A DNA stretch of 64,000 nt, taken from Metallosphaera hakonensis JCM 8857 = DSM 7519. Lineage in GTDB: Archaea > Thermoproteota > Thermoprotei_A > Sulfolobales > Sulfolobaceae. Both the position numbers and the translations under genes were made by a program. The stretch is taken from positions 1,612,001-1,676,000 of the forward strand of contig NZ_CP029287.2 in assembly GCF_003201675.2 (NCBI RefSeq). The letters are read 5' to 3'. Positions 54,863 through 64,000 of this stretch are shown piece by piece. The stretch's first letter is position 1, and the number at the start of each line of letters is the position of its first letter. The notes beneath the pieces were generated by a model that did not search any database, was not told the DNA's origin, and worked only from the letters and a program-made list of their open reading frames with translations.

Positions 54863-55309
54863 TCAAGAGGCTGGCACGACTATAGCTTTTTCCTTGTTGG
54901 ACTTATACTCCTCCAGCCTCTCCATCATCTTCTTCACTGTCAAAGAGAGTTGATCTTTGTGATATTTCCTCACGTGTTCCTCTGTGTCCTCCCTTGCCAC
55001 CACAGTATTGCATAGCTTACATGTATAAACTCCATTTTCATTCCTCTCAACTATTGGTTCTATACCTTTAGCAAGATACTGGAGAATGGGAATGACTTTT
55101 TTAGCTCTAATTTCGCTGCCACTCTTTTCTATAATACGCTGAGCATATCCTCTAAGCTGATGCTTTGAGATGTTGTATTTGTGGGCCACAATGGCCGGAC
55201 CTTCGCCATCCACTAGGTATTCCTCTAAGGCGTTTAATAGATAGTCGCCTCCTCCTAGTATCTTCAAAGAGACATAATTTATGAGAGATTTTATATCAAC
55301 TGGCTTCAT
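54863..55309 (-). CDS. HTH protein with a C2H2 zinc finger
   Basis: A 148-residue protein. Residues 22-62 form an HTH-like block (VAHKYNISKHQLRGYAQRI), and residues 95-118 a single C2H2 finger with Cys97, Cys100, His112 and His117 (Cys-x2-Cys-x11-His-x4-His), followed by a charged helix. This layout suggests a crenarchaeal transcription factor. It lies between the RHH gene and purM, on the same strand. Confidence 0.7.
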   Translation of the reverse strand: MKPVDIKSLINYVSLKILGGGDYLLNALEEYLVDGEGPAIVAHKYNISKHQLRGYAQRIIEKSGSEIRAKKVIPILQYLAKGIEPIVERNENGVYTCKLCNTVVAREDTEEHVRKYHKDQLSLTVKKMMERLEEYKSNKEKAIVVPAS

Positions 55310-55365: not shown

Positions 55366-56334
55366 CTATACGTAAAGAAGCTCAGATTTGTGTGTGGTTA
55401 TTCTAATCTTTCCTAAATCATTCCCTACCTCCCCTACAATAAAGCTAGGTACGAAGGGATTCAGTATACGAAGTATTTCTTCCACATTTGTCTTGTCTGC
55501 AAAGAGGATCATTCCCACTCCCATGTTGAAAACCCTATACATCTCCTCGTGTGGGACTCCAGCAAGCTCTATCGCCTTAAAAATAGCGGGGGGTTCAGGG
55601 AGAGTTATGTCAAGGGAGTACTTGGTGATCCTCCTCAACTTGGAAAAGGATCCCCCCGTGATGTGACCAGCCCCCTTAATTAGGTGAAGGACACTCATGA
55701 CTGGTTTGACGTAAATTCTTGTGGGTTTCAAAAGCTCTTCCCCCCAATCCTCCCAGGACAACTTTCCTTGATCTAGGAGCCTACGGATTAGAGTGTAACC
55801 GTTAGAGTGTACTCCGTTACTGGCCAATCCAATTAAAACGTCGCCTGGTCTAACGTCGTCTCCAGTTATTAACTTGTCTACAACCCCCATTGCCGTACAG
55901 GAAACATCAAAGCCGTTTACTACATCCTTCATTACTGCTGTCTCTCCGCCAACCACGTCTGCATCGGCTTCCTTTGCTCCACTCACTATCCCTTGGATTA
56001 TCTCAGAGATGATCCCTTCAGAGGGCTCGTCTATGGCAATGTAGTCAACTATAGCTAAAGGCTTTGCACCAATACTGATCAAATCATTGACATTCATGGC
56101 GACGCAATCTATTCCTATATTTGAATATTTCTTCATCCTTTTAGCTAAAAGGGTCTTGGTTCCAACTCCATCAACGTGTATAGCCAACTTCATGTTATTT
56201 ATCTCAATAACCCCAGAGTAATGGCCTGCACCAAGAATTGTTCTCTTATAAGTGGAGGATATCATCGAGGCTACTTCCCTATGTATGTCCTTTAGTTTAT
56301 TGAGGTCCACTCCAGACTTTCTATATTCGCTCAC
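55366..56334 (-). CDS. purM: Phosphoribosylformylglycinamidine cyclo-ligase (AIR synthetase)
   Basis: Forms AIR from FGAM with ATP. I start at GTG 56334, which overlaps the purD stop as GTGA and gives the family-like MSEYRKSGVDLNK; TTG 56358 adds eight residues. 322 residues. Blocks: HVDGVGTKTLLA near 60, GIDCVAMNVNDLISIGA near 78, VGGETAVM near 130 and ASNGVHSNGYTLIRRL near 173. Last gene of the purine operon. Confidence 0.94.
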   Translation of the reverse strand: MSEYRKSGVDLNKLKDIHREVASMISSTYKRTILGAGHYSGVIEINNMKLAIHVDGVGTKTLLAKRMKKYSNIGIDCVAMNVNDLISIGAKPLAIVDYIAIDEPSEGIISEIIQGIVSGAKEADADVVGGETAVMKDVVNGFDVSCTAMGVVDKLITGDDVRPGDVLIGLASNGVHSNGYTLIRRLLDQGKLSWEDWGEELLKPTRIYVKPVMSVLHLIKGAGHITGGSFSKLRRITKYSLDITLPEPPAIFKAIELAGVPHEEMYRVFNMGVGMILFADKTNVEEILRILNPFVPSFIVGEVGNDLGKIRITTHKSELLYV

Positions 56335-57764
56335 CAGAGACCACCGTTGGGAGCCCAATCTGCCGAGACTCCTAAAGACCCACGTTTAACCCTGTTTTGA
56401 TACGAATACCTTACTATCTCTACCTTTTCCATTTGTTCGTCCAAGGTTCTCCCAATGTCGGTTCTGTATACCAGTTCTGTATTAGCTGAGATCATCTTGA
56501 TACATCCGTCAAGTCTCCTTGACGCGTCTTCAAAGCTTCCCAAGGCCGCTAGTTCAAGAGCTCTAGATCCACGACTAATTAGCTTCCCTCCTTCATAAGA
56601 GATCGAGCCGAAGTAGACTTTACAACCCTTCTCCTCCATTGCCCTCACGTCCAGCTGGAACTCCTTTCCTGTGGCCAGATCTCTTCTCAGCGGGTAACCC
56701 AACGGGGCAACTGCCCTAACAACAGACGGTTCTTCTGTTACCTCGAGTTTGGCCTTGGATAGCTTCTCCTCAGCGGTGAGTTGCAAGAGATATCCGAAGT
56801 CTGAACTTATTCTTGGAATTATGGATGAAGTTTCTGGGTCACCCATTCTAGAGTAGAATTCTATAACCGTAGGTCCCCATAACTCAGTTAACATCATTTG
56901 GCCTGATATAAAACCCTTATAGGAATAACCAGTTTCTTGTTTTATTGCATTGGCTGTGTCCTGGACTATACGGAATGTTTTGTCGTATTCCTCCGAGTTT
57001 ATAAAGGGAAGCAGGTTCCCTGGTCCCGAGATGGAGCCCATCCCCCCAGTCTCAGGCCCAATTCCATCTTGGTAGGCATGCTTATAGTCCTGAGCTAACG
57101 GGAGTGGTAGAAAGGTGTGTCCATCAGTTAAAACGTGGAGCGTGTACTCCGGTCCATCAACTTTCTCCTCGATGATTATTTTCACCTCATTCTTCACTAG
57201 GGACCCAATCTCATCCACGCTCTTACTTAGAGCTCTCCTCTTCTCGTTGGAAAGATAAGCCTGAATATCAGCTACGACCTTAACGCCCTTACCACCCACC
57301 TGTTCTGCCGGTTTCACCGCCACGGATCCACCGTAGTCCACAATAAACTTGGATGCCTCTTCCAAGCTCGTGAAGCTTCTGAACCTTAGTCTGCCGTCGA
57401 TCTTATATTTCCACATTATTTGTCTCATCCAGACCTTTGATCTCTCTATCTCGGCATTGGAACTATTTGGTCCAACCACTGGAATCCCGTTCCTCCTGAA
57501 CACATCGGCTGCACCGTGAAAGAGCGGATCCTCTGGTCCCACAACTCCAAAGTCTGGGCTAACTTTCCTTATTGCCGAATCTATTTCTTCTTGAGAGTTT
57601 ATGTTCCCTTTCAAGTACTCACCTCCGGTTCTTATTACAGCCTCCCTGATACCAGGATTGATGTATGACGAGAGAGCGTACACCCTGTAGCCTTGAGGAG
57701 AACTGGCTAGGGCTTCAGCCATGGCATGCTCCCTGGCTCCATCTCCTATCAGTAGAACCTTCAT
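56331..57764 (-). CDS. purD: Phosphoribosylamine--glycine ligase (GAR synthetase)
   Basis: An ATP-grasp enzyme of 477 residues that joins phosphoribosylamine and glycine. Start block VLLIGDGAREHAMAEAL near 3-19, the ATP lid AVKPAEQVGGKGVKV near 149, and EFYSRMGDPETSSIIPRI near 298, where the usual N-ARFGDPE is changed to SRMGDPE. It starts next to the purF2 stop without a gap. Confidence 0.94.
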   Translation of the reverse strand: MKVLLIGDGAREHAMAEALASSPQGYRVYALSSYINPGIREAVIRTGGEYLKGNINSQEEIDSAIRKVSPDFGVVGPEDPLFHGAADVFRRNGIPVVGPNSSNAEIERSKVWMRQIMWKYKIDGRLRFRSFTSLEEASKFIVDYGGSVAVKPAEQVGGKGVKVVADIQAYLSNEKRRALSKSVDEIGSLVKNEVKIIIEEKVDGPEYTLHVLTDGHTFLPLPLAQDYKHAYQDGIGPETGGMGSISGPGNLLPFINSEEYDKTFRIVQDTANAIKQETGYSYKGFISGQMMLTELWGPTVIEFYSRMGDPETSSIIPRISSDFGYLLQLTAEEKLSKAKLEVTEEPSVVRAVAPLGYPLRRDLATGKEFQLDVRAMEEKGCKVYFGSISYEGGKLISRGSRALELAALGSFEDASRRLDGCIKMISANTELVYRTDIGRTLDEQMEKVEIVRYSYQNRVKRGSLGVSADWAPNGGLW

Positions 57765-58970
57765 TCATATCACCTTTGGATAGCTCTTAGTCATGCAACC
57801 GGTACACAGTGTAGACCTCGATATAGCCTTTTGTAAACCCTCCAAGGAGAGCCAGTGTATAGAGTCTGCACCTAGGACCTTGGCTATGTCATCCTCGCTT
57901 AGATTTGCAGCTATAAGTTCCTTATCTTCTGGGACCTCTATTCCGTATGGGCACGACGACACCAGTTTCGGGCTTCCTATGAGCACGTGAACTTCCTTAG
58001 CTCCTAAGCGTCTCAAACTCATGATAGTATTTTTGAGCGTAGTCCCAGTTACCATGGAATCGTCTATAAGGACAACTCTCTTCCCAAATACTGCCCCTTT
58101 TATGGGATTAAGTTTTAGCTGAACACCAACAATCTTAAGGAAGCTGTCTGACGCAAGCATAGTCCTTATGGGGCTCCCTGTCCTGGTGAATCCCAGATCC
58201 AATGGGATACCCAGCTTCCTGGAATAGCCCACAGCAAAGGGAAGCGCGGTTTCTGGTACCCCTATTACAGTATCAGCGTAAATCGGCTTCTCATCGGCCA
58301 GTTGCTCCCCGATTCTAACTCTCGTCTCGTAGACGTTACCTTCATTGACGAAACTATCTATCCTCGCCTGATACACGTACTCTATGGAACAATAGGCCTT
58401 TTTGGGTTCCTTGAGGATTACGGACTTCACATTAAGGCCGGAGATTGTCACCATTTCACCTGGCAATATCTCCCTTCTGAAGTCTCCGCCTATCACATTC
58501 ATAGCTACAGGTTCGGACGCTATTATCCCCATATCAAATCCGAATCCCCCGAGGCTCAATGGTCTCACTCCGGTCTCGTCTCTATACCCTATTACTTCAC
58601 CTTCCCTGGTTAGTGCCACCAGAGAGAAAGCTCCCTTGGCCTCCTCCAATGCTTTCTCCCTATCCTTGGTGAAAGTCCTTAGGAAGCCCTGTGGGTCCTT
58701 AAGCACACCATCGACCGAAATCGCTACCTCATCGTTGTGTATTGGGTAACCTCTCCTTGATCCAGTGTACCCAATTCCTGCCCACCCATCAAGCTGAAAC
58801 TCTAGGTCCTCTGGAGAGACGTCATTTATAAAAGACTCCATTCCTTCATTTAACATTACTACCCCACTGGTTGCATATCCCCTATGTTGTAAACCTATCA
58901 TGGAGTAGTATAGGAACTTGGACACGTTCCATATTCTATCGAAGGCTAAAACGCCTACTATTCCTGCCAT
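57765..58970 (-). CDS. PurF paralog without glutaminase active site
   Basis: A 401-residue PurF homologue from ATG 58970, preceded by AGGTGA; GTG 58979 is an alternative. It begins MAGIVG where active PurF begins MCGIVG, so the nucleophile Cys is Ala. RYSTxG of the glutamine site reads GYTGSRRG and the oxyanion NG reads DG. The phosphoribosyltransferase half remains, with LIDDSMVTGTT in place of the usual VDDSIVRGNT, and four cluster-type cysteines (YCSIEY, SSCPYG, LCTGC). Probably a partner or regulator of PurF1, or an ammonia-using enzyme. Confidence 0.85.
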   Translation of the reverse strand: MAGIVGVLAFDRIWNVSKFLYYSMIGLQHRGYATSGVVMLNEGMESFINDVSPEDLEFQLDGWAGIGYTGSRRGYPIHNDEVAISVDGVLKDPQGFLRTFTKDREKALEEAKGAFSLVALTREGEVIGYRDETGVRPLSLGGFGFDMGIIASEPVAMNVIGGDFRREILPGEMVTISGLNVKSVILKEPKKAYCSIEYVYQARIDSFVNEGNVYETRVRIGEQLADEKPIYADTVIGVPETALPFAVGYSRKLGIPLDLGFTRTGSPIRTMLASDSFLKIVGVQLKLNPIKGAVFGKRVVLIDDSMVTGTTLKNTIMSLRRLGAKEVHVLIGSPKLVSSCPYGIEVPEDKELIAANLSEDDIAKVLGADSIHWLSLEGLQKAISRSTLCTGCMTKSYPKVI

Positions 58971-58975
58971 AACCT

Positions 58976-60310
58976 TCACCTAGCGAACACACTCTCCAAA
59001 TTGGAGAGATCGTATCTACCCTTGAGCGGGTAATACCCGGTAAAACAGGCCTTACATAGGGTAGTCCTTCCTATAGCCTGTTCCATTTCGTTAACCGAAA
59101 GATATTCAACGGAGTCTGCTCCAATCTCACGTGCGATCATGGCCTCACTCCCCAAGTTCCCTATCAATTCAGACCTCTTTGGGAAGTCAATTCCCATATA
59201 ACATGGGTATTTAATCATTGGTGAACCTATCCTCACGTGTACCTCCTTAGCACCTGCGCTCTTGAGTGATGTTACGAGCCGTTTCATTGTGTTCCCCCTA
59301 ACGATGGAGTCATCAACTAGAATAACCCTTTTCTCATTTATGGCCGACTCGACTACACCAAATTTCTCCTTGAGCACGTCATTCCTGGCCTCATTTGAAG
59401 GCATTATAAAAGACCTCTTAGATGTGACGGTCCTGACTAGAGCCTCCTCAAGGGGTATCCCGCTAGCCCTGGAGAAACCTAGAGCTATGGGTCTAGACGA
59501 GTCCGGAACTGGTACCACTATGTCTCCCTTAGCAGGATGGTGCTCAGCGAGGATCTCACCAAGCTTTATCCTTGAGGTGTAGACCGAAATCCCGTCTATC
59601 TCGGAGTCCGGCCTTGAGAAGTATATGTACTCGAAAGAGCATGTAGTGGTTTGCAGAGTGTGAACCTTCTCCCTATAGAATCCCCTCTCGTTCAATATCA
59701 CCATCTCCCCAGGATGCACAGATCCGACAACCCTTCCGCCGAGTTGCCTTATTGCGGAATCCTCGGACGCTATTACTTTGTTCTCCCCTATTTCCCCTAA
59801 GACTAGGGGGCGGAATCCCCTAGGATCTCTTAAGGCAACTATTTCTCCGGAGACTGAGAGGATTAGAAGAGAGAACGCACCGTCCGCGACGTCCATAAAA
59901 GCCTTAGCAGAACTTTCAAGGCTCCTCCCAGAGGAAATCTCCTTTGAAAGAAAGCCCAGAATGAACTCCGTGTCCGTGGAGTATCTACCAAACTTGAAGT
60001 GATTGGTTATGGTACCGTTGAAGGAAACGGATATCTCTCCATCATCAAGGGGTTGGGCCTCCTGCAACGTTGTTGCCCCAGTTGTGGAGTACCTCACGTG
60101 ACCTATGGAGAAACTTGAAATACCTATATCTCCAGGGTTTAAGGCCTCTCCAACCAGACCCAAACCCTTACTTGTCTTGATTTTCCCATTCTCTATCCAG
60201 GATATCCCTGCAGATTCTTGCCCCCTATGTTGTAGCAACTTAAGTCCCTCATATGTCAGCCTAGTGGAATCGGGTCCTACTACTCCGAAAACTCCGCAAT
60301 GTTCCTTCAT
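58976..60310 (-). CDS. purF: Amidophosphoribosyltransferase PurF (catalytic)
   Basis: First step of purine synthesis: PRPP plus glutamine to phosphoribosylamine. Cys5 in MKEHCGVFGV is the N-terminal nucleophile after removal of four residues. GHVRYSTTG near 70, SFNGTITN near 94 and the PRPP loop ILVDDSIVRGNT near 325 are intact. Cysteines in TTCSFEY, YPCYMG and LCKAC match the 4Fe-4S type of PurF. 444 residues, between purL and the paralog with 4-bp overlaps on both sides. Confidence 0.95.
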   Translation of the reverse strand: MKEHCGVFGVVGPDSTRLTYEGLKLLQHRGQESAGISWIENGKIKTSKGLGLVGEALNPGDIGISSFSIGHVRYSTTGATTLQEAQPLDDGEISVSFNGTITNHFKFGRYSTDTEFILGFLSKEISSGRSLESSAKAFMDVADGAFSLLILSVSGEIVALRDPRGFRPLVLGEIGENKVIASEDSAIRQLGGRVVGSVHPGEMVILNERGFYREKVHTLQTTTCSFEYIYFSRPDSEIDGISVYTSRIKLGEILAEHHPAKGDIVVPVPDSSRPIALGFSRASGIPLEEALVRTVTSKRSFIMPSNEARNDVLKEKFGVVESAINEKRVILVDDSIVRGNTMKRLVTSLKSAGAKEVHVRIGSPMIKYPCYMGIDFPKRSELIGNLGSEAMIAREIGADSVEYLSVNEMEQAIGRTTLCKACFTGYYPLKGRYDLSNLESVFAR

Positions 60311-62415
60311 AACTCTCCCTCCAAGTAAGAGTAGTAGTTCTCCACCACTTTTCCTAGGGAAATCTTCCTCTCATCCAGGATTAAGTCAGGGTCCCCCTTA
60401 CTCACCTTACCTATAACAGAGGCAGTTAATCCCATCCTCCCCGACTGATACATGAACCACTGTGGATCATCGGTTATCACAAGGAATCTCCCTCCATTTT
60501 CTGAGAAAAGTTTCCCCAACATCTCAGAGGTCCCAACTATTGATGATGAGACTATTCTGACCGAGAACCCTTCGGCGATTATTTTAAGGACCGCTCCTGC
60601 AATTCCGCCCTTTGAAATGTCCTTATTCCACTTAACTTTCCCCTCATTGATTCCCTTGATGACTAGGTTGGAAGATATCAAGTCCTCCATGAGTCTAGCT
60701 CTAGATAGTTCACCACGACCTCCGTAAATCCTTCCAAACAACGTCCCTATCAACTCGTTCCTCGTCTCCCCCAAGAGGACGAGATTTCCTTCAGTGACCT
60801 TGTTCCTACCAATCTTTCCCTCCACCAGTCCAGCCATTACAACAAGGGGTGTGGGTTTAATTGGATTCCCGTTCTTATCCTCATTATGGAATGAGACCTT
60901 TCCTCCAACGACAGGAATAGAAAAGAACCTCGATGCCTCAGAGATTCCTCTCACAGCATCCACGAAGTCCTGGTACACATCTGGTTTTCTAGGATCGCCA
61001 AACTGAAGGTGATCTACCACGGCTATGCCCCTGGCCCCAACTGTGGCGAGGTTCCTGTAGGCCTCGGCCACTATGGACTTACCGCATTCATAGGCGTCCT
61101 CTGCGCATAGGTCCTGATTTGCGTCTCCCTTGAGGGCCAAATGTTTTCCATTTGGCAATTCTATAACTGCGCTATCGGCCTGCCCTGGCTTAATCAAGGT
61201 TGAGGTCCCCACTTCATAGTCGTATTGCGAGTACGCCCACTCTTTATTGACCAGGTCTGGATGCGACAACACGGTAATGAGGGCCTCCTCGACGCTGACT
61301 TCTCTAACCGGTCGCGCTCTTCTTGGCGGTCTTTCCATGGGCCAAACGTTTAATGGAGGAGAAAGGAGTAAATCCGAAGGGAGATCTGTCACAACTTCGT
61401 CGTTGTAGAGAAACCTTATTCTTGGATCTTCAGTTATTTCTCCTATGTCCTCGCAAGGGTAATTATATTCCCTGAACTTGGAGCAGATCTTCTCGACCTT
61501 GTCTGGTTTCACAGCGAATAGCATTCGCTCTTGCGTCTCGGAAATGATGATGTCCTCTGGCGAAAGGAACTTGAACCTCAAGGGTACTTTCTCCAGATGC
61601 ACTGTTGCCCCTAATCCGTTAGCCATTTCGGTTACGGCCACTGCCAAGCCACCTCCTCCCAGGTCCTTAATGGCTTCTACCTCTTTCGCTATCTCCAAGG
61701 TCACGTCGATAATTATTTTTCCCGCAAATGGATCTGCTATTTGAACTGCCCCTATTTCGTCCATTCCGCTCAATTTCCTCGATGCAAAGGAAGCTCCTCC
61801 CAATCCATCCAGTCCTGTGAAGCCTGCCAGAACCAACCTGAGCCCGGCCTCGCGGACCACGCTTGGTACAACGCTATCCTTAGGCACTATTCCGGCACAC
61901 GCTACGTCCACCAAGGGATTATCGTTAAAGGTTTCATCAAAGGAAAGTTCTCCACCTACCACCGGTACCCCAACGTTGTTACCGTAGAAGCCTATCCCTG
62001 CAATGATATTTTTAAGTAACCATTTGCCCCTATCGTCAAGCTTCCCTACTCTTATCATGTCAAGTAGGGCTATGGGTTTAGCGCCTTTACTAATGATATC
62101 CCTTAGGATACCCCCGACTCCCGTCGCAGCTCCATTAAAGGGATCTATGGCTGATGGATGATTGTGACTCTCCACTTTTAGGACTAAAGCCAGACCATCC
62201 CCGATATCCACTGCTCCCGCGTCTTGCCAGTCCTCTATGCTCATGATAACGTTTGGCCCGGTGCTAGGTAAGCTTCTTAGGAAAACCTTAGAACTTTTAT
62301 AGGAACAATGCTCCGACCAAAGTGCATCAAGTAGCTTCCATTCGGACTCCTTCGGTTCCCTTCCAAGTACCCTTCTGGCAACTTCCATTTCATTGTTAGA
62401 AAGTGTGAGCATCAT
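60307..62415 (-). CDS. purL: FGAM synthase subunit PurL
   Basis: The 702-residue small-type PurL, which with PurQ and PurS forms phosphoribosylformylglycinamidine synthase. Blocks: DALWSEHCSYKSSK near 28, LKVESHNHPSAIDPFNGAATG near 77 (metal/ATP His), KDLGGGGLAVAVTEMA near 248 and a second repeat with GDANQDLCAEDAYECG. It starts at an ATGA overlap with purQ. Confidence 0.96.
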   Translation of the reverse strand: MMLTLSNNEMEVARRVLGREPKESEWKLLDALWSEHCSYKSSKVFLRSLPSTGPNVIMSIEDWQDAGAVDIGDGLALVLKVESHNHPSAIDPFNGAATGVGGILRDIISKGAKPIALLDMIRVGKLDDRGKWLLKNIIAGIGFYGNNVGVPVVGGELSFDETFNDNPLVDVACAGIVPKDSVVPSVVREAGLRLVLAGFTGLDGLGGASFASRKLSGMDEIGAVQIADPFAGKIIIDVTLEIAKEVEAIKDLGGGGLAVAVTEMANGLGATVHLEKVPLRFKFLSPEDIIISETQERMLFAVKPDKVEKICSKFREYNYPCEDIGEITEDPRIRFLYNDEVVTDLPSDLLLSPPLNVWPMERPPRRARPVREVSVEEALITVLSHPDLVNKEWAYSQYDYEVGTSTLIKPGQADSAVIELPNGKHLALKGDANQDLCAEDAYECGKSIVAEAYRNLATVGARGIAVVDHLQFGDPRKPDVYQDFVDAVRGISEASRFFSIPVVGGKVSFHNEDKNGNPIKPTPLVVMAGLVEGKIGRNKVTEGNLVLLGETRNELIGTLFGRIYGGRGELSRARLMEDLISSNLVIKGINEGKVKWNKDISKGGIAGAVLKIIAEGFSVRIVSSSIVGTSEMLGKLFSENGGRFLVITDDPQWFMYQSGRMGLTASVIGKVSKGDPDLILDERKISLGKVVENYYSYLEGEL

Positions 62416-63080
62416 TTCGCGAACACCTTCAATATCTCCAAGCCGTCTGAGGATCCGTCAGGGGAAATCGTGGAAAACGCTGCCCTCTCGGGATGAGGCA
62501 TTAATCCCAGAACGTTTCCGGCCTCATTGGAGATCCCAGCTATATTTAGGATCGATCCGTTTGGATTAGCTTCCACAGTGGGATCTCCCTTCTCATCGAC
62601 GTATTGGAACACTGACAACTTAGACGCAGTCTCCTCGTCATCTAGGAAGTACCTTCCCTCAGCGTGAGCTATGGGCATATAAAGAACGTCTTTGCTATCC
62701 TTAGTGAACGGCGTGTCCTTTCTTCTGACCATAACCCTAACCCACCTTGTTATAAACCTTAAGCCTAGATTGGGAAGTAACGCCCCCTTTAGGAGCCCAG
62801 ACTCAACAAGAATCTGAAAACCGTTGCAAATTCCAAGAACCAATTTGCCTTGGTCGGCCATTTCCCTTACTCCTCTCATTGTCTCGCTGTTGGCCGCTAT
62901 GGCCCCTGCCCTAAGGTAATCACCGAAGCTGAAGCCTCCTGGGATAACCACACCCTGATATTTGTCTGGGTCAAATCTATTGAATAGAACAACCTCGGCC
63001 TCAGCACCAACCGCTCTGAGTGCCTTTAGCACATCAGTTTCACAGGTTGTACCCGGGAACTTAATTATTGCTGTCCTCAA
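62412..63080 (-). CDS. purQ: FGAM synthase glutaminase subunit PurQ
   Basis: A class I amidotransferase of 222 residues that feeds ammonia to PurL. Nucleophile Cys in VLGICNGFQILVESGLL near 85, the catalytic His-x-Glu in LMPHPERAAF near 203. The N-terminus IIKFPGTTCETDVLKAL is typical. It starts with TTG inside the end of purS (20-bp overlap). Confidence 0.95.
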   Translation of the reverse strand: MRTAIIKFPGTTCETDVLKALRAVGAEAEVVLFNRFDPDKYQGVVIPGGFSFGDYLRAGAIAANSETMRGVREMADQGKLVLGICNGFQILVESGLLKGALLPNLGLRFITRWVRVMVRRKDTPFTKDSKDVLYMPIAHAEGRYFLDDEETASKLSVFQYVDEKGDPTVEANPNGSILNIAGISNEAGNVLGLMPHPERAAFSTISPDGSSDGLEILKVFAK

Positions 63081-63330
63081 CCCTTTCCGCCCTCACCCTT
63101 ATCTTGTGAACTATGGGATTGTACAGTCTCCTTTGCTCGGCTAATCTCCTGGCAAGGTCTTCGGCCTCTTCCTTTGAGGAGGCATTTATTTTCATGATGA
63201 TTATCTTTCCCACCCTGGCGTCTAATACCTTTCCAGGGAGAGTGGAGTCAATCACGTAACGCTTGAGAGTTTCCCCCTCGGGATCCCTGACACCTTCCTT
63301 ATTGATTACAATCAGTTCCACCGAATACAT
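63061..63330 (-). CDS. purS: FGAM synthase subunit PurS
   Basis: An 89-residue small subunit that bridges PurL and PurQ and helps ammonia transfer. Pattern VINKEGVRDPEGETLKRYV near 8-26 is the PurS signature. It overlaps purC by one base and purQ by 20 bp. Confidence 0.93.
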   Translation of the reverse strand: MYSVELIVINKEGVRDPEGETLKRYVIDSTLPGKVLDARVGKIIIMKINASSKEEAEDLARRLAEQRRLYNPIVHKIRVRAERVEDSNN

Positions 63331-64000
63331 CAGGCTACCGACCTCAGTTTTTCGAGAAATTCCTCATATGATGCCTTTACTTGATCTAGGGGATATCCTT
63401 TCCTGTAAAGGTCCTTATCCATAATTCTCCCTGTGTTGGGATCTCTTACCCTCATGGAATCAAGGGTGATCTCGTCACCTACAATAAGTCTCCCGTCTCT
63501 TCTTCCGAACTCGAGCTTGAAATCATAGAGCTTAAGCCCCAGCCTCACCACGATCGCCCTGAGTACTTCATTTACCTTGATCATTACTTCCTCAATTTCC
63601 TTGGCCTCAACTTCGTTCATGAGTTTAAGATGCCTCATGTGATGATAATTGAGCAAAGGATCATGTCTAGCGTCGTCCTTCAAGAAGAATTCAACTATGG
63701 GAGGGTCAAAGACCTCATCCTCACTTATTGGCAACCTCTTGACGATGCTCCCAGTTGCGAAATTTCTCAGAACCACCTCAACAGGTACCATGGTTAACCT
63801 CTTAGCAATAATGGTTCTCTCGTCTTTCATTCCCACGTAATGGGTCTCTATCCCCTCCCTTTCTAGAAGTCTAAATATTAGAGCCGAAGTTTGGGCATTG
63901 AGGATACCCTTTCCTTCAATTACATCGGTCTTAGCCCCGTCCCCGGCAGTTACGGAGTCCTTGAATCTGAGTAAAACGTGATCGTTATCAAGGAGGAAAA
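63330..64000 (-). CDS. purC: SAICAR synthetase PurC, 5' end beyond the window
   Basis: Joins CAIR and aspartate. The frame is open through the right edge of the window: the part above the internal Met reads [20 protein letters not shown] and then [17 protein letters not shown], both PurC. Catalytic-region blocks [13 protein letters not shown] and [20 protein letters not shown] follow. Only about the first 15 residues are missing. It would be the first or an early gene of the purine operon. Confidence 0.93.

Follow-up and report, generated by a model that had tools for sequence, protein, structure and literature searches.

PurF, the glutamine PRPP amidotransferase (EC 2.4.2.14), catalyzes the opening step of the purine pathway, which is also the most tightly regulated one, and the known enzyme is a homotetramer. 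The enzymes of B. subtilis (1gph, 1ao0) and Arabidopsis (6lbp) have a two-domain Ntn plus PRTase fold, which they share with the protein described here. This second PurF-like protein was named PurF′ by Brown et al. (2011, Biol Direct 6:63, PMC3261824), who reported it in every Crenarchaeon, suggested an ammonia-dependent enzyme as a hypothesis, and left the purF duplication as unexplained. PurF′ itself was already described in 2011, and a literature search, with most subscription journals outside its reach, revealed neither a later experimental study of PurF′ nor essentiality data for purF′. The protein encoded in our window shows no essential difference from the PurF′ of Brown et al. Both are second PurF-like proteins that form their own tree cluster and are encoded near purF and other pur genes; the former has Ala2, and the latter lacks the N-terminal Cys and often has Ala or Val. 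Mlab_0150 of Methanocorpusculum labreanum is likewise an additional PurF without the Cys nucleophile, but Brown et al. (2011) describe it as a recent lineage-specific duplicate that carries Ser instead and lies outside the PurF′ cluster. PurF and PurF′ also share the PRPP loop, the flexible-loop Lys and four Fe-S-type cysteines. Unlike PurF, PurF′ lacks Cys1, the glutamine loop and the oxyanion Asn, has F313 and the allosteric R307 replaced, and scores under the TIGR01134 cut-off. Our analysis adds a single origin, wider sampling, a residue-level map over many families with the deletion of the glutamine loop, a PRPP site that is stricter in PurF′ than in PurF, and two PurF′-bearing lineages whose PurF keeps the glutaminase and loses the flexible-loop Lys.

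The purF′ locus

The window, i.e., the whole analyzed stretch of 64,000 nucleotides, belongs to a genome that consists of one contig of 2.54 Mb; the closest relatives that carry a name are Metallosphaera species. The minus-strand gene order is purC-purS-purQ-purL-purF-purF′-purD-purM, and neighbouring starts and stops overlap or abut. The pair therefore lies near other purine genes, as is characteristic of purF′. A sequence-only reading of this DNA had placed the gene correctly, in both position and strand, within a purine operon and beside an intact PurF; the latter scored 388 bits against TIGR01134 (cut-off 350). The features of the locus are as follows:

60307..63836 (-), purL, purQ, purS and purC, directly upstream of purF
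58976..60310 (-), intact purF, 444 aa, Cys behind a short MKEH leader (TIGR01134)
58976..58981 (-), AGGTGA, Shine-Dalgarno-like, 5 bases ahead of the ATG at 58970, overlapping the purF stop
57765..58970 (-), purF′ CDS, 401 aa, ATG start (sequence and homologs)
56331-57764 (-), purD, directly downstream of purF′
55366-56358 (-), purM, downstream, after purD (purD and purM together span 55366..57764)

Judging from the sequence, the ATG at 58970 is the likely start of purF′. The sole alternative is the GTG at 58979, located in the GTGA overlap with the purF stop, which would add MKV. A different start giving a Cys at the mature N-terminus, raised as an objection in the sequence-only reading, was rejected: there is no in-frame start ahead of GTG 58979, and neither of the two starts yields Cys. 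Below purM, a 148-aa frame (window 54863-55309, minus strand) has a helix-turn-helix-like stretch and a CxxC...HxxxxH-like motif. It gave no Pfam or NCBIfam match and is possibly a regulator.

The two halves of PurF′

The residues were compared in an alignment of 108 PurF′ with 118 other PurF, the E. coli enzyme included among the latter; positions follow the B. subtilis numbering. The features of the window protein are listed below:

58401..58970 (-), degenerate Ntn glutaminase domain, about residues 1-190, without the glutamine loop and with the NG Asn changed to Asp87
58965..58967 (-), Ala2 codon, aligning with the PurF nucleophile Cys1 (alignment)
57768..58400 (-), PRTase domain, about residues 191-401 (Pfam)
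58113..58184 (-), PRTase flexible loop, residues 263-286, with the invariant Lys286, B. subtilis K328 (alignment)
58038..58064 (-), PRPP loop DDSMVTGTT, residues 303-311 (alignment)
57795..57806 (-), CTGC with the last two Fe-S-type cysteines, C389 and C392 (alignment)

Cys at position 1 was found in 117/118 of the other PurF and in 0/108 PurF′, where the position is occupied by A (51), S (16), T (13), P (9), G (8) and others. The window protein lacks the RYSTxG glutamine loop through a deletion, and columns 75-77 are gapped in 102/108 PurF′. R72 and Y73 are lost, N102 is Asp in 80/108, D127 is retained in just 40/108, and R26 and G27 are invariant. With Ala at 1, Gly at 72 and Asp at 102, the window protein does not carry the PurF set of Cys1 and the glutamine-binding residues R72, N102 and D127. 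It scored 235.6 bits against TIGR01134, below the cut-off of 350, with a match that starts at profile position 144, and Pfam recognizes its PRTase domain alone. The complete absence of Cys1, the loop deletion and the changes at N102 and D127 indicate that the glutaminase was lost across the PurF′ clade. The replacement of the nucleophile by Ala and the missing glutamine site had thus been read correctly from this one gene. Of the oxyanion site, which had been called gone as a whole, only the Asn is lost and the Gly is kept (NG to DG). The loss proved universal among the Sulfolobales paralogs, as had been proposed for checking, and it extends to all other lineages with the paralog.

The PRTase core is kept, as the sequence-only reading had claimed. 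R245, R259, R311, K328, D345, D346 and G351 are identical in 108/108 PurF′, S347 and Y242 are found in 107/108, and T353 in 106/108. In family-weighted conservation, PurF′ exceeds PurF at R245, D247, K328, D345 and T353. The window protein has the DDS, G and T of the PurF PRPP loop together with K328. Its loop reads DDSMVTGTT, where the adjacent PurF has DDSIVRGNT. All PurF have R at position 350; of the 108 PurF′, 60 have T and 36 have R, and T is fixed in the family of the window (30/30). The change to VTGTT pointed out earlier is therefore real, but it varies between lineages, and the rest of the loop is intact. TGTT is similar to the loop of other PRTases.

In Arabidopsis PurF, mutation of the equivalents of D345, D346 and S347 makes activity markedly lower, and mutation of the essential Y242 equivalent almost abolishes it; the E. 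coli equivalent of Y242 contacts the pyrophosphate of PRPP (PMC7056826). In our alignment, Y242, D345, D346 and S347 match E. coli Y258, D366, D367 and S368. The flexible-loop Lys K328 aligns with E. coli K349, and by analogy with other PRTases we infer that it contacts pyrophosphate.

The four Fe-S-type cysteines that had been noticed are C194, C340, C389 and C392. Across PurF′, C382, C437 and C440 are present in 108/108 and C236 in 101. Among families f6 and f8 (e.g., L086, L095, L098), 7 PurF′ have Ser at this last position and keep the other three cysteines. An AlphaFold model of the window protein (mean pLDDT 81, pTM 0.79) keeps both PurF domains, with the PRTase flexible loop (residues 263-286) disordered. 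It aligned with PurF structures with Z of 37-40 over about 381 residues, in agreement with a two-domain Ntn plus PRTase fold, and its N-terminal part aligned with other Ntn amidotransferases.

Distribution of PurF′ and changes in its partner

In a tree of 103 sequences, PurF′ formed one clade (SH-aLRT 100) apart from true PurF, and its subgroups largely mirrored those of PurF. This points to one old duplication and mostly vertical inheritance. A class survey of 144 genomes at least 85 percent complete, in which presence means strong matches, revealed 57 genomes with both purF and purF′ and 87 with neither. purM was found in 56 genomes, all within these 57. This co-occurrence with purF and purM ties PurF′ to the purine pathway; alone, it does not show dependence of PurF′ on PurF, since the pathway disappears as a unit. 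Across the phylum, many families carry PurF without PurF′. The usual order is purF then purF′, with a gap of about 16 bases or less in most families. The two genes are several kb apart in some f2, f9 and f10 genomes, far apart in f7, and on opposite strands or further apart in f23. Within the genus, PurF′ is the less changed of the two, with a dN of 0.08-0.13 against 0.15-0.19 for PurF, a comparison that rests on dN as dS is saturated. A pseudogene or a sequencing error was rejected on the basis of the 108 homologs and the low within-genus dN.

In family f23, which we take to be Thermoproteaceae-like, the PurF of 13 genomes keeps Cys1, R72, N102, G103 and D127 and carries K328A/V/S, R245H and T353N; K328, R245 and T353 are retained in the 6 aligned PurF′ of that family. 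In f31, the K328 of PurF is lost through a three-residue gap in 4/6. A PurF tree built without the relevant columns required three K328 changes, and the losses grouped into two clades, f23+f31 and f37+f61+f24. The f23/f31 pattern suggests, as a sign rather than a proof, that PurF′ may bear the PRTase activity for the pair. However, PurF of f24, a family without detectable PurF′, shows R245H and T353S, and K328N in 4/5, so changes at R245, K328 and T353 need not abolish activity. As f24 nests inside a PurF′-bearing clade, it may have lost PurF′ later. Of the channel-region residues, F313 is present in PurF of all genomes and I314 in nearly all, f23 included, which hints that coupling to PurF's own PRTase still matters. 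A general relaxation of the PurF PRTase domain in PurF′-bearing genomes was rejected, since the PRTase/Ntn conservation ratio of PurF is 1.33 with PurF′ and 1.32 without it.

A profile search for a hidden PurF′ in f24 found none. A second PurF-like frame in the f24 genome G184 (L198:1808-3373, minus strand) was rejected as PurF′ because it belongs to another family. It encodes a distant PurF-like protein of 521 aa without N-terminal Cys (MLGGLFGV), with the PRPP loop IDDSIRRGTQ, CLYC near the C-terminus and GATase_7 as the sole Pfam domain, and it is neither PurF nor PurF′. Two other loci stood out. In genome G343 of f37 (L177), PurF is 59 percent identical to f23 PurF, unlike in other f37 genomes, which we ascribe to contamination or gene transfer. 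In genome G132, a PurF-type frame from 9060 of L081 has Gly, Gly, Asp, Asp and Pro at 1, 72, 73, 102 and 127; sister genomes carry an intact PurF, and the frame may reflect a frameshift or an assembly error.

Possible roles of PurF′

From the sequence comparisons, which establish glutaminase loss, PRPP-site retention, a single origin and a strict tie to both PurF and the purine pathway, we propose that PurF′ is a functional ammonia-using PRTase and probably a second subunit with PurF (probability about 0.5). The glutaminase half would be a dead scaffold, and the PRTase half would bind PRPP and make phosphoribosylamine from ammonia, acting in the purine pathway beside a glutaminase-competent PurF. 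The two proteins would form a hetero-oligomer with PurF′ most likely as the second subunit, ammonia being supplied or shared. Such a complex is plausible in view of the adjacent genes, strict co-occurrence and reciprocal PurF erosion in two lineages. That they form an obligate two-subunit enzyme, in which PurF splits glutamine and PurF′ performs the PRTase reaction, is doubtful; this division would be most advanced in f23 and f31.

The sequence-only reading had offered a hetero-oligomer in which this subunit regulates the other, or an ammonia-dependent enzyme. As a regulator, PurF′ would be a PRPP-binding, non-catalytic subunit that adjusts the intact PurF in response to PRPP or nucleotides. 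This role agrees with the neighbouring positions and the co-occurrence of the two genes, and dead paralogs are often regulators. R307, one of four residues whose mutation gives release from feedback in B. subtilis PurF (PMC4223553), is absent from every PurF′ and also from PurF in the family of the window, so feedback must work differently there. Against regulation speaks the catalytic set K328, D345, D346 and R245, retained more strictly than in PurF, whose own PRTase loop has decayed in f23 and in some f31. A purely regulatory subunit would have no need of such a strictly kept PRPP site, and this role, being less fitting, is unlikely. At the level of sequence, an active PRPP subunit that uses ammonia and works with PurF is better supported, so that the ammonia proposal held up better than the regulatory one.

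The ammonia proposal of Brown et al. (2011) can also be taken to mean that PurF′ alone is an ammonia-dependent PRPP aminotransferase, giving a second route to phosphoribosylamine under plentiful ammonia. It overlaps strongly with our main explanation and agrees with the lost glutaminase and retained PRPP site; E. coli PurF without Cys1 is still able to use ammonia, according to work cited in PMC3261824. However, it would leave unexplained why every genome of the class survey that has PurF′ also has PurF, and why the dead Ntn domain is retained, and we consider it rather improbable. Least probable is that PurF′ now uses PRPP with a different acceptor, for some other reaction within purine synthesis or close to it. 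Around the site, PurF′ has exchanged residues that are invariant in PurF (F313 for A or M, R350 for T or S in many), and T283, T306, L327 and P383 are invariant positions peculiar to it; A or M for F313 could mean a different acceptor and so count against our main explanation. Yet PurF′ is always tied to purine genes and PurF, and another reaction gives no general answer to the missing IMP cyclohydrolase, as Pyrococci also lack that gene, whereas Brown et al. reported a second purF-like gene for only one Euryarchaeon (PMC3261824). From the same paper, PurF′ as the missing cyclohydrolase itself was judged unlikely.

If a two-gene PurF is indeed universal in a whole archaeal lineage, this step of purine synthesis would be catalyzed or controlled differently there. 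The residue pattern points to the proteins and sites concerned, above all the f23 pair, whose two proteins look most complementary.
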